A stretch of DNA of 64,000 nt from an uncultured Gammaproteobacteria bacterium (lineage in GTDB: Bacteria; Pseudomonadota; Gammaproteobacteria; Pseudomonadales; Pseudohongiellaceae), in contig CAJXRP010000013.1 in assembly GCA_913060495.1 (NCBI GenBank), forward strand, positions 1 to 64,000, in the 5' to 3' direction. A program made the position numbers and the translations under genes. Position 1 is the stretch's first letter. Every line of letters starts with the position of its first letter. Below, one piece after another: positions 34,978-39,236 of the stretch. A model generated the notes under the pieces. That model had not been told where the DNA came from and searched no databases. It worked only from the letters and a program-made list of their open reading frames with translations.

Positions 34978-36123
34978 ATGGAAAAAGCACCTATCAACTG
35001 GACAAATATGTTGCTGTTTAGCCTGACCCCAGCGTTTGCCCTAGTAATCGTACCTCTGTATGGCTATTTTTATGGCTACGACCTCTATGAGTGGATGGTA
35101 TTCGTACTGCTGATGGGGTTTTGCGGCATGTCCATAACTGCTGGCTACCACCGCCTCTGGTCGCACAAGGCCTATAAGGCACACCCATTTATTCGAGCCG
35201 TCTTTGCATTAGGAGGCGCCTGTGCACTGCAGAACGACATATTAACTTGGGCATCGGGGCATCGCCGCCATCATCAATTCGTCGATAACAACGATCGAGA
35301 CCCTTATTCCGCCGGACGTGGCTTCTGGTTTTCTCATATTGGATGGATTCTGCGCAACTATGAAAGTGGCGCAGAAGACTATTCGAATGTTAAAGATCTA
35401 ATGAAGGATCCAATCGTAGTTTGGCAGAAGAAAAACTACCTAAGCCTACTCTTGTTAATGAATATTGGGCTCCCCGCATTTCTAGGATTTATTCATGGGG
35501 ATGTTATCGCTGGGCTATTACTCGGCGGCCTACTGCGCTTAGTCTTGAGCCAACATGTTACCTACCTAATTAACTCCATAGCACACATGTGGGGTCGACA
35601 ACCTTATAGCGAGAATAGTTCGGCTAGAGACAATCCAATTTTAGCCTTTTTTACTTATGGCGAGGGATATCATAATTATCATCACACTTTTCAATGGGAC
35701 TATCGAAACGGTATTCGCTGGTGGCACTTCGACCCAACGAAGTGGATGATTAGCCTACTCTCTTTCGTTGGCTTAACTCGCGATCTCAAACGCTGCAATC
35801 CTGCGCAGATCGAGAAAGCACGACTCGAACTTCAATACCTCAAAGCGACTGAGAAATGTGAGCGCTTCGATATTCCGGAAAGCTGGCGACTGCGACTGGA
35901 AACTGAATACGAACAACTCCTGCAGACCCTCCAATTGTGGACCGAACACAGGCAAGCCTGGTACGAGGCCAAGGGAATACAGTTGCAAGAAAGTCTCAAC
36001 TCATTGGATCGGCTTCAGCTGAAGCATGGTTACCAAGAAGTCCAATACCGACTAAAGGCGCAAAAACAGCGCTGGCAATACCTACTGCGCGACCTGGCGC
36101 AGCCAAACCCACAATTGATCTAA
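34978..36123 (+). CDS. Acyl-CoA / lipid delta-9 fatty acid desaturase
   Basis: 381 residues, integral-membrane di-iron desaturase that introduces a cis double bond into saturated acyl chains. The three histidine boxes are present: H58-RLWS-H63, H95-RRHH (95-99) and HNYHHTFQWD (about 233). Four membrane segments in two pairs. After the catalytic part there is a 110-residue C-terminal tail, Leu/Gln/Glu/Arg-rich and probably helical, longer than in minimal homologues. Stands alone; likely membrane-fluidity function, with a cold-shock gene nearby, but co-regulation is not shown. Confidence 0.92.
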   Translation: MEKAPINWTNMLLFSLTPAFALVIVPLYGYFYGYDLYEWMVFVLLMGFCGMSITAGYHRLWSHKAYKAHPFIRAVFALGGACALQNDILTWASGHRRHHQFVDNNDRDPYSAGRGFWFSHIGWILRNYESGAEDYSNVKDLMKDPIVVWQKKNYLSLLLLMNIGLPAFLGFIHGDVIAGLLLGGLLRLVLSQHVTYLINSIAHMWGRQPYSENSSARDNPILAFFTYGEGYHNYHHTFQWDYRNGIRWWHFDPTKWMISLLSFVGLTRDLKRCNPAQIEKARLELQYLKATEKCERFDIPESWRLRLETEYEQLLQTLQLWTEHRQAWYEAKGIQLQESLNSLDRLQLKHGYQEVQYRLKAQKQRWQYLLRDLAQPNPQLI

Positions 36124-36343: not shown

Positions 36344-36853
36344 ATGAATATCAAGCAGAAATCACAAATGCTAGCCCTAATGGCGCTTACAGCAGCTAGC
36401 AACTCTGCCTGGGCTGTGGAAGAAGGCGATACCGCACCTATCTTCGACCTGCCTTCGATCTATGCTGATCACCCAGCTATAAGCACGGCTAGCCTCGAAG
36501 GAAAGACGGTTTACGTGGACTTCTGGGCCTCTTGGTGTGCCCCCTGCCTCACTTCGCTGCCACTTTATAATGACATGTATCACAAATATAAAGACCAGGG
36601 CTTGGAGATAGTCGCTATTAACGTAGACAATCCAATAGAAGATGGACTCGACTTCCTACTCGATACGCCTCTGGATTTTTTGATTCCGGCAGACCCTGAC
36701 GGCGAAGCTGCGGAGTTATTCGAAGTAATAGGTATGCCAACGTCTTACCTGATCGAGCCTGATGGCACGGTCAAACTTGTGCACATGGGCTTCCGATCCG
36801 GCGACATCGAAATGATTGAAGAAGCTATACAAGATTCTTTAGGTGGCAACTAG
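36344..36853 (+). CDS. TlpA-like periplasmic thioredoxin
   Basis: 169 residues with a signal peptide (NSAWAVEEG, cut near 24). Thioredoxin fold of the TlpA/ResA group with active site W64-C65-A66-P67-C68 and the cis-Pro loop IGMPTSYLI. Periplasmic thiol-disulfide reductase. First gene of the tlpA-DUF4266-DUF3570-apbE set; the next gene encodes a lipoprotein with a Cys pair at its C-terminus, a possible substrate. Confidence 0.9.
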   Translation: MNIKQKSQMLALMALTAASNSAWAVEEGDTAPIFDLPSIYADHPAISTASLEGKTVYVDFWASWCAPCLTSLPLYNDMYHKYKDQGLEIVAINVDNPIEDGLDFLLDTPLDFLIPADPDGEAAELFEVIGMPTSYLIEPDGTVKLVHMGFRSGDIEMIEEAIQDSLGGN

Positions 36854-36885
36854 CCATCTAAAGACCTAATGAGGGAACAGTTCCA

Positions 36886-37104
36886 ATGCGACAGCTACGC
36901 AACACCTTACTCCTGTCGATTTGCAGCCTACTACTGATTTCCTGCGCGGATGTTCGTGCCTGGGAGCGAGGCTACCTCGCTCGGGAGGAAATGGCCTGGG
37001 ATACCGACGCGCTAGAGAGCGCTCTCAACGACCACATCTTCTTTAGCAAAGAGGCCTCCTCAGGGGGCAACAGCGCTGCAGGTGGCGGCTGCGGCTGCAA
37101 TTAG
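36886..37104 (+). CDS. DUF4266 small lipoprotein
   Basis: 72 residues. Signal peptide with lipobox LLISC, lipidated Cys20; the residue after it is Ala, not Asp, so sorting to the outer membrane is expected. The mature protein is only 53 residues: a conserved WERGYLAREEMAWD block, then a Ser/Gly/Ala-rich linker and a terminal GGGCGCN with two Cys. The function of the family is not known. The Cys pair could be a metal or cofactor site, a disulfide handled by the upstream thioredoxin, or a modification site. It lies 32 bases after the thioredoxin gene and 12 before the DUF3570 gene. Confidence 0.88.
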   Translation: MRQLRNTLLLSICSLLLISCADVRAWERGYLAREEMAWDTDALESALNDHIFFSKEASSGGNSAAGGGCGCN

Positions 37105-37116
37105 GCCCTGCTCCGC

Positions 37117-38274
37117 GTGAAGAACAACGCCTCTCTCAACATTATTGCCCTATCTAGCACAGCTCTGGCGCTGCCCGGCATAGCCTTGGCGGATGCTCCT
37201 CCTACCCAGAGCACGATTTCCTATAAATTATCCAACTATCAAGAAGACGATCTTTCTCGATCAGAGGCTCCGCTCGGAGAACTGGATCGCTATGACATCG
37301 ACGTACATCAATTTCAACTAGTCTCTCCTCTCGGCCGTAATATGTCTTTGCATGTTGACGCGAATTACGAGTCACTGAGTGGCGCTTCGCCCTGGTTCAC
37401 GAGTCGCAGCCTAGATGGCGAACCCGTAGTGAACTTAAGTGGACCGAGCGGAATTAATGACCGACGCACAGAACTCAGTGTCGGCAGCCGCTACTATCTA
37501 GAAAATGGCAGCTTTGCAGGAAACATCGGCTATTCTGAAGAGAATGACTATCGCGCCAGCTACTTTAGCTTGAACGGAGAACGGCATTATAACAACGACT
37601 TAACCACAGTCTCGGCGGGCCTCAGCTATTCATCCGATGAAATATTTCCCACCGATGCCGAACTCTTCAATCGCGTTCAAGACGAAGATAAGCAGAGTAC
37701 CTCTCTCTTCATCTCCGTCAGTCAAATTATTAATCAGCTATCCAGCTTTCAATCTGCGTTAAGCTTTACCGAACAGTCTGGCTTTCTAAACGACCCCTAT
37801 AAGCTCAGAGACATCAGGCCAGATGACAAAACACAGATAGCTTGGAGTAATTCCTACAGGAGGTTCTTCGTTTCTGCGAATGCCGCACTCCATGTTAACT
37901 ACCGTTACTACCACGATGATTTTGGCATTAGCTCTCACACCAGCGACCTTTCCTGGCACCAGAATCTCGGACGTACATTTCAACTCGTTCCACAATTACG
38001 TTATTACAGCCAATCTGCAGCGGATTTTTTTACTAACGTTGACGACTTTCTTAGCCCGCTTAGCGAGTACCAATCTAGCGACTATCGCCTCTCGGCATTT
38101 GGCGCGGTTAGCGGAGGCTTTTCCGTGATTGCGGATATGGGTTCTTGGAAGGCAACACTGACAGCAGAACGCTATCTCGCCAACGACAAGTATTCCGCCT
38201 ATGAGGTGTCGGAGCCCAGCACTGCGCTAGTTAAATACAACCGCCTATCACTAGGCATCGATTTCAAGTTCTAG
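37117..38274 (+). CDS. DUF3570 protein, likely outer-membrane beta-barrel
   Basis: 385 residues from a GTG. Signal peptide cut near ALADA (about 25). The rest is an alternating beta pattern with many aromatic residues and ends in Phe (SLGIDFKF), as outer-membrane barrels do. Near the N-terminus is DANYESLSGASPWF (residues 81-94), with SGAS at 88-91 (37378-37389). This resembles the FMN-attachment motif D-x-x-SGA-(S/T) used by ApbE transferases, with Glu85 at the acidic position. The apbE gene follows 50 bases downstream, so this protein is a candidate flavinylation target, which is inference. Confidence 0.85.
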   Translation: MKNNASLNIIALSSTALALPGIALADAPPTQSTISYKLSNYQEDDLSRSEAPLGELDRYDIDVHQFQLVSPLGRNMSLHVDANYESLSGASPWFTSRSLDGEPVVNLSGPSGINDRRTELSVGSRYYLENGSFAGNIGYSEENDYRASYFSLNGERHYNNDLTTVSAGLSYSSDEIFPTDAELFNRVQDEDKQSTSLFISVSQIINQLSSFQSALSFTEQSGFLNDPYKLRDIRPDDKTQIAWSNSYRRFFVSANAALHVNYRYYHDDFGISSHTSDLSWHQNLGRTFQLVPQLRYYSQSAADFFTNVDDFLSPLSEYQSSDYRLSAFGAVSGGFSVIADMGSWKATLTAERYLANDKYSAYEVSEPSTALVKYNRLSLGIDFKF

Positions 38275-38324
38275 CCAATGCCTGCCTTGTACGCCATAAC
38301 TTTCTATCGAATTAAAACTTGACC

Positions 38325-39236
38325 ATGAGTCCGGAACCAAAGCGCTTCTCATTCAAGGCCATGGGAAGTTTTTGCGAGATTCAACTGTTCGATGAATCCC
38401 CCGTCCGCGCAAAAAATATCGCCAAACAACTTATCGACGAAGTTGCACGATTGGAAAAAAAATACTCTCGCTTTCGAGAAGATAGCTTGCTGAGCAGAAT
38501 TAATTCATCAGCGGGAAACAAAGCTGGCCTAGCCATTGATGAGGAAACACAATCGCTGTTTAACCATGCTCTAAATTGTTTTGAGCAGAGCGATGGACTT
38601 TTTGACATCACCTCTGGCGCACTGAACCAACTCTGGGATTTCAAGAAGGCTCTCGTTCCTAGCCAGGAAAAAATCGACGCAGCACGCGCTCATGTTGGCC
38701 TACACAAAGTATCTTGCCAAGACTCTCACATACGACTGCCGCGCTATATGCAAATAGACTTTGGGGGCATCGTGAAGGAGTATGCCGCCGATTCTGCAGC
38801 GAGCTTGGCGCGCAGCTTAGACGTAGAACATGGCTTAGTAAATTTGGGAGGGGATTTCAGCGTCATAGGGGCGCAACCTGAGAACACTCCTTGGACTATA
38901 GGCATCTCTAGCCCAGAATCTAAAAACGACATCATGGCAAAGATCGACCTCATCAACGGCGGCCTTGCCAGTAGCGGAGACTATGAGCGCTTCTTCATGC
39001 ACGAGGGCCATCGTTATAGTCACATTCTAAACCCCCTAACAGGCTGGCCCGCCAGCGGCTTGCGTGCGGTAAGTATTGCTGCAAATCTATGCAGCGTCGC
39101 TGGCTCGGTAGCAACAATTGCGATGCTGAAGGAGGAAGTAGAAGCTAAAATCTGGCTTAAAGATTCGGGACTTGGACATGTCTACATGGACAGTCAGGGC
39201 ATAGTTGCAGGCGCGGACCTGAAAAACAAAAATTAG
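38325..39236 (+). CDS. apbE: ApbE-family FAD:protein FMN transferase, atypical
   Basis: 304 residues from the ATG at 38325; an upstream TTG two codons earlier is less likely, and an in-frame stop at 38313 rules out a longer N-terminus. ApbE enzymes move FMN from FAD to a Thr/Ser of exported flavoproteins. Family features: KAMGSFCEIQL, LEKKYSRFREDS, IDFGGIVKEYAAD, LVNLGGDFSVIG and SHILNPLTGWP. Two oddities: there is no signal peptide or lipobox although most ApbE act outside the cytoplasm, and the usual Mg-binding Asp of the ADA-x-x-T motif appears as Gly260 (VAGSVATIAML). Last gene of its operon; overlaps convergent srkA by 4 bases. Confidence 0.9.
   Translation: MSPEPKRFSFKAMGSFCEIQLFDESPVRAKNIAKQLIDEVARLEKKYSRFREDSLLSRINSSAGNKAGLAIDEETQSLFNHALNCFEQSDGLFDITSGALNQLWDFKKALVPSQEKIDAARAHVGLHKVSCQDSHIRLPRYMQIDFGGIVKEYAADSAASLARSLDVEHGLVNLGGDFSVIGAQPENTPWTIGISSPESKNDIMAKIDLINGGLASSGDYERFFMHEGHRYSHILNPLTGWPASGLRAVSIAANLCSVAGSVATIAMLKEEVEAKIWLKDSGLGHVYMDSQGIVAGADLKNKN

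Follow-up and report, generated by a model that had tools for sequence, protein, structure and literature searches.

The window analyzed here is a 64,000-nucleotide stretch (positions 1 to 64,000 of contig CAJXRP010000013.1, assembly GCA_913060495.1) from an uncultured gammaproteobacterium of the Pseudohongiellaceae. At positions 36,344 to 39,236, it contains a four-gene operon that encodes a periplasmic thioredoxin, a small DUF4266 lipoprotein, a DUF3570 outer-membrane β-barrel, and an ApbE, the enzyme that transfers flavin mononucleotide (FMN) from flavin adenine dinucleotide (FAD) to proteins. The TlpA/ResA-like thioredoxin (36344..36853, plus strand) was recognized with Pfam and NCBIfam (AhpC-TSA/Redoxin, 6.8e-20) and has 169 residues, a signal peptide, and a WCAPC active site whose CxxC is kept in all aligned homologues. 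This is followed by the DUF4266 lipoprotein (36886..37104, plus strand; PF14086, 2.9e-22), a 72-residue precursor with its lipobox cysteine at residue 20 (36943-36945, plus strand) and a C-terminal C-G-C-N tail (37090..37101, plus strand) that was delimited by comparison with the C-termini of homologues. The DUF3570 gene (37117..38274, plus strand; PF12094, 5e-63) begins with GTG and encodes 385 residues, with a signal peptide at about residues 1-25 and a C-terminal Phe. The ApbE gene (38325..39236, plus strand; PF02424, 3e-73) encodes 303 residues from an ATG at 38325, with a TTG at 38319 as the alternative start, and belongs to an operon-specific clade. All four Pfam assignments exceed their cut-offs, that of the ApbE domain with 247 bits against 25.6. 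A preliminary description of this DNA had given the order of the four genes on one strand, their spacing of 32, 12 and 50 bases, and a mature lipoprotein of 53 residues ending in GGGCGCN, all of which agree with the coordinates. Most of the genus has the same gene order, and it recurs more widely in the Gammaproteobacteria; therefore, the arrangement is not due to chance.

Gene clusters of this composition are known. Méheust et al. (2021, PMC8238504) reported clusters of ApbE, DUF3570, a thioredoxin-like protein and DUF4266, 227 of them with DsbD (with DUF3570) and 316 without it, and proposed that the CXC of DUF4266 cycles between redox states in a system fed by DsbD. For Chlorobium luteolum, they proved DUF3570 to be an ApbE substrate with two [S/T]GA[S/T] sites, both of which are flavinylated upon co-expression with its own ApbE in Escherichia coli; their mutant data imply that one motif suffices for some flavinylation. 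A reading of the operon as a new module is ruled out by this publication, and the preliminary description, which had inferred a redox unit of the envelope in which a flavin and a Cys pair take part, agrees with it and is thus correct but not new. DUF3570 goes unmentioned in a 2025 review of ApbE (PMC12052999) and was not modelled in a 2024 structural survey. Co-occurrence of the families, which had been suggested as a check on a shared system, was examined in 369 gammaproteobacterial genomes, in statistics that ignore shared ancestry. DUF3570 is present in 95/369 genomes and DUF4266 in 90/369, and every DUF4266 genome (90/90) also carries DUF3570. ApbEs of the window's kind, called type A here, are present in 47 of the 50 genomes with a high-scoring DUF3570, and 42 of the 51 ApbE genes closest to that of the window have a DUF3570 no more than 8 kb away. 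The check also extended to loci without the thioredoxin, where the DUF4266-DUF3570-ApbE trio is kept in some genus members (L083, L084, L087-L089); the families pass it. Taken together with the published work, the operon very probably encodes an outer-membrane module for electron transfer that carries a covalent flavin.

Signal peptides are present on the thioredoxin, DUF4266 and DUF3570 and absent from the ApbE, whose missing export signal was overlooked when the enzyme was placed in an envelope unit. There is no room for such a signal because the reading frame is interrupted by a TAA (38313..38315, plus strand) two codons ahead of the first possible start. Many relatives of the enzyme are built in the same way: the open frame before the core is at most 25 residues long in 81/129 type-A genes, compared with 2/52 in a comparison set, and both short-frame entries of that set (L228 and L232) are themselves type-A sequences. 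A mis-called start that hides a signal peptide is ruled out by the upstream stop codon and by these 81 homologues.

The active site of the window ApbE is also altered. In the E. coli enzyme, the ligands of metal 1 are D280, T284 and the carbonyl of T166, and metal 2 is bound by E169 (PMC4767422). For Vibrio cholerae, D285, S241 and H257 are the only residues of the catalytic centre that are called conserved (PMC12052999). By alignment, the window equivalents are G260 (39102..39104, plus strand) for D280/D285, T264 for T284, K151 for E169, and E152 (38778..38780, plus strand) for G170, which is the Gly of the K-G-Y motif in other ApbEs. The Ser and His of the Ser-His-Asp centre are kept as S217 and H233. 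Because this conserved set is incomplete, with Gly260 in place of Asp, the window ApbE is classed from its alignment as a member of a divergent clade of the family and not as a canonical ApbE. Gly stands at position 260 in all type-A sequences and Glu at 152 in all but one, which has Lys, while the other 43 ApbEs have Asp and Gly throughout; the 80 named loci were found with scan patterns that omitted positions 152 and 260, and the best matches were picked by similarity to the window, so the sample leans toward type A. In a midpoint-rooted tree of 173 distinct ApbEs, the 130 Gly sequences and the 43 Asp sequences form two exact clades, with branch supports of 0.84 and 0.999 on either side of the root. 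This points to one origin, with the pairing of E152 and G260 as a single event, and repeated independent loss of the Asp is not supported, as one change explains both clades. An error of sequencing or alignment is likewise ruled out, since the change is present in 130/130 distinct type-A sequences from many genomes; its carriers include the isolates Nitrosomonas ureae and Methylomonas koyamae. Type A occurs in Gamma-, Beta- and Alphaproteobacteria, and record titles add Nitrospirae, Nitrospinota, Myxococcota and Chlorobiaceae. The window-related type-A ApbEs from named genomes come from metagenome-assembled genomes at 65-77% identity, one of which is labelled Pseudohongiella.

One explanation for these changes is that the type-A protein has lost full transferase function and instead binds or hydrolyzes FAD or acts as a chaperone, leaving the barrel without flavin. 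The residue that is missing is both one of the three called conserved (PMC12052999) and a metal-1 ligand in E. coli (PMC4767422), and all the type-A ApbEs examined carry Gly in its place. Set against this, the triad Ser and His and the metal-ligand Thr are kept, and a Glu appears beside the metal-2 position. A leaderless type-A ApbE also occurs in Chlorobiaceae (L216), which matters because the sole experimentally tested pair comes from this bacterial family; the C. luteolum ApbE, which is linked to type A here by its family, is active (PMC8238504). Loss of the transferase function is thus very unlikely. Our guess is that E152, which sits four residues past the equivalent of the T166 ligand, takes over the role of the lost carboxylate.

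A type-A enzyme that retains its activity and has no leader would flavinylate its substrate in the cytoplasm before export, a step to which we give about even odds. The C. luteolum constructs were truncated for their signal peptides and the DUF3570 was mostly in the pellet or insoluble fraction (PMC8238504), which means that flavinylation does not require a barrel that has been exported and folded and that ApbE can modify a chain that is not exported. It is also plausible, by analogy, that a chain bearing FMN can be exported: SecYEG translocates proOmpA labelled with fluorescein-maleimide in vitro (PMC11131593), a label that is, by our own comparison, of a size comparable to FMN. Alternatively, an exported ApbE may flavinylate DUF3570 in the periplasm during its transit, and the leaderless enzyme of the operon would then modify some other, cytosolic protein. 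The window genome does encode a second ApbE, exported and canonical, in an nqr-like cluster (G000:C36, L123:2916-3974), so a periplasmic route may operate in this organism. Both halves of the idea have precedents: the envelope substrates that have been characterized receive their flavin from secreted ApbEs, outside the cytosol, and Klebsiella uses a cytosolic ApbE for its cytosolic fumarate reductase (PMC12052999). This division of labor is nevertheless unlikely. In four genomes, G323 (a single contig) and G091, both 100% complete, and the nearly complete G006 and G313, a leaderless type-A ApbE is the only ApbE. In addition, type A accompanies DUF3570 in 47 of 50 genomes, mostly as a neighboring gene, and the operons hold no candidate cytosolic substrate. 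Type-A ApbE genes that have no adjacent DUF3570 lie mostly beside unrelated genes (RecG, chorismate lyase, glutathione synthetase and others), and no alternative partner was found among these neighbors except one TonB receptor. This TonB-dependent receptor (L168:3275-5749) is directly upstream of its ApbE and carries YLTGASPNGA, a motif common to many DUF3570s, which makes it a possible flavinylation substrate.

The DUF3570 protein was modelled with AlphaFold from 45 sequences (predicted local distance difference test, pLDDT, 88.2; predicted template modelling score, pTM, 0.84). The model has 16 main strands and its Foldseek matches are general outer-membrane barrels. A signal peptide, an even number of strands, the C-terminal aromatic residue, short inner turns and long outer loops are all found, as is usual for an outer-membrane barrel; the predicted outer loops are 16, 23, 2, 13, 14, 4, 28 and 16 residues long, compared with 4, 2, 4, 2, 4, 3 and 2 for the inner turns. 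Both flavin motifs are placed in outer loop L2 (residues 90-112), with motif 1 beginning at the end of strand 3. The window protein keeps one of the two published motifs intact, S88-G89-A90-S91 (37378..37389, plus strand), which fits the [S/T]GA[S/T] pattern and is conserved in the alignment, with Ser91 as the predicted site of FMN attachment. The second, S108-G109-P110-S111 (37438..37449, plus strand), is degenerate; most of the genus has SGAS here, and the close relatives L064 and L066 share the SGP. The outer half of the barrel holds 16/16 invariant and 35/38 near-invariant residues (Fisher p 2.7e-5), the reverse of ordinary porins, in which the outer loops are variable. Since an inserted barrel would show the L2 loop to the outside, flavinylation most likely precedes insertion. 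The identity of the DUF3570 signal peptide among homologues is similar to that of the mature part, in a comparison confounded by low complexity, and one may speculate that a conserved signal peptide serves as a docking site for ApbE.

DUF3570 loci fall into two subtypes. Loci with lower-scoring DUF3570s, called type B, also contain the thioredoxin and DUF4266, but mostly have SSAS at the position of the type-A SGAS, and their ApbE, which is adjacent or a few kb off, has a hydrophobic N-terminal signal and the canonical residues. The window locus is type A. As far as we have found, the leaderless clade with its Asp/Gly and Gly/Glu changes, the two DUF3570 subtypes and the conservation at the extracellular mouth are apparently undescribed in PMC8238504.

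The other half of the module consists of the thioredoxin and DUF4266. Homologues of DUF4266 have lipobox-like signals, and CGC followed by exactly one residue forms the C-terminus in 121/123 distinct sequences. The exceptions are L074, which is apparently frameshifted, and L092 (L092:8200-8560), where the gene stops before the Gly-rich tail. The partner DUF3570 at L092 has no [S/T]GA[S/T] at all and no ApbE is adjacent; the same genome has an intact second copy of the operon (L090) and a type-A ApbE elsewhere. The joint loss of tail and flavin motif in this paralogue, a single case, suggests that the CGC tail and the flavin work together. A relay between the thiols of the thioredoxin and CGC and the flavin is about as probable as not, and its electrons could run in either direction. 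These two proteins may instead be assembly factors or a metal-binding arm, which would make the module a device for reductive uptake or sensing of a metal (Fe or Cu) at the surface. The C-terminal CGC could bind a soft metal, 25 of the published clusters contain a VIT1 iron transporter (PMC8238504), and TonB receptors stand beside some operons or type-A ApbE genes. In methane and ammonia oxidizers, DUF3570 reaches ~900 residues, and its second domain is Met/His-rich in L163. Methane and ammonia oxidizers rely on copper enzymes. We consider a metal device rather improbable, as the DUF3570 of the window and of most of the genus has no Cys that would need help with disulfides and no recurrent metal transporter was seen in the neighborhoods sampled. 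The long form of DUF3570, ~850-1000 residues, is found in many methanotrophs and Nitrosomonas (L163:2974-5940, L189:3202-5979, L094:6965-9625) and has an extra C-terminal region with no Pfam name; the one such region that was read, in L163, resembles a second barrel.

These observations can be joined into a proposal in which a published type of outer-membrane flavin module is flavinylated before export and passes electrons from thiols to the surface; we put its probability as a whole at roughly 60%. The leaderless ApbE would attach FMN to Ser91 of the unfolded DUF3570 precursor in the cytoplasm, Sec would export the flavinylated chain, and the β-barrel assembly machinery (BAM) would build it into the membrane as a barrel of 16 strands, the flavin presumably lying at the extracellular mouth. 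In genomes that encode DsbD, this protein would supply the reducing equivalents. These would travel from the periplasmic thioredoxin to the lipid-anchored DUF4266, which would take them up on the thiols of its C-terminal CGC, next to the DUF3570 flavin and finally to a putative partner at or outside the cell surface. In the window genome, the thioredoxin is inside the operon and a search found one DsbD_TM gene elsewhere. The outer electron partner may differ between lineages because the neighbors of the operon vary and include a DUF1592/DUF1588 cytochrome with DUF1501, DsbD, a RoxA-like cytochrome and a TonB receptor. A more specific version is tentative and somewhat less probable than its negation: a clade with a relocated metal-site carboxylate, the Asp lost from the A-D-x-x-x-T loop and a Glu gained in K-E-Y, would flavinylate the barrel precursor in the cytoplasm, and Sec and BAM would carry the FMN chain to the surface.

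Several points weigh against the proposal. The cytosolic location of the type-A ApbE is deduced from its sequence, and the exported ApbE of the nqr cluster might do the work on the periplasmic side. In the alignment, TGSS or TGST stands in place of [S/T]GA[S/T] in several DUF3570s of Gammaproteobacteria, yet the operon is retained. The assignment of inner and outer sides comes from strand parity and loop length, with both termini taken as periplasmic. AlphaFold was run on a joined DUF4266-DUF3570 chain, with the TAG read through, to see whether the CGC tail docks in the barrel; the tail was disordered (pLDDT about 25), an uninformative result that gives no docking support.

The general view is that envelope proteins receive their covalent flavins once they have been exported, from an ApbE that is itself exported. 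If a cytosolic clade does pre-load the barrel, cofactor insertion and outer-membrane biogenesis would be coupled in an unexpected order, Sec would have to carry an FMN-modified chain, and a covalent cofactor fitted inside the cell would end up as a redox center on its surface. This would be a minimal, cytochrome-free design for a surface redox cofactor, and it would raise the question of whether ApbE really needs its "catalytic" Asp.

The surroundings of the operon differ between genomes. In the window, Pfam identifies a fatty-acid desaturase upstream (34978-36123), which is kept beside the operon in about 20 loci of the genus, and a convergent APH-family kinase downstream. Genes for a DUF1592/DUF1588-type cytochrome c and DUF1501 adjoin the operon in six loci (L091, L119, L121, L196, L210, L219), mostly in the same orientation, and a gene for a RoxA-like cytochrome c is directly upstream in another (L204:1646-4057). 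In methanotrophs and nitrifiers, a secreted protein of ~150 residues that has no Pfam match is encoded directly upstream at L189:2018-2455 and 20 or so similar loci. An enrichment of haem-motif genes beside the operons (5/81 near, 10/364 elsewhere) is too weak to claim.

Among known systems, the closest are the clusters of Méheust et al. (PMC8238504), with which the window shares the four families and their neighborhood, DUF3570 next to ApbE, the C-terminal CXC of DUF4266 and the thiol-fed electron path proposed there. The window operon is of the type without DsbD, and its DUF3570 keeps one of two flavin motifs. With the canonical ApbE/Ftp proteins of E. coli, V. cholerae and Treponema pallidum, the window ApbE shares its fold family, the SGDY and H(I/L)xP motifs, the Ser and His of the triad, and the Thr that is a metal ligand. 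It differs in the change of the triad and metal-1 Asp to Gly, in the Glu of the KGY motif, and in having neither a lipoprotein nor a Sec signal, one of which is typical of ApbE, if not universal. The cytosolic ApbE of Klebsiella is similar in that it has no signal peptide and acts inside the cell, as the window enzyme probably does, but its substrate is a cytosolic enzyme whereas the window partner is an exported outer-membrane barrel. Finally, MtrCAB-type and Gram-positive flavin systems for extracellular electron transfer offer an analogy, as they likewise carry electrons across the envelope to the surface; in contrast to the MtrCAB type, the window operon contains no multihaem cytochrome, and a covalent flavin on the barrel is the proposed surface cofactor.

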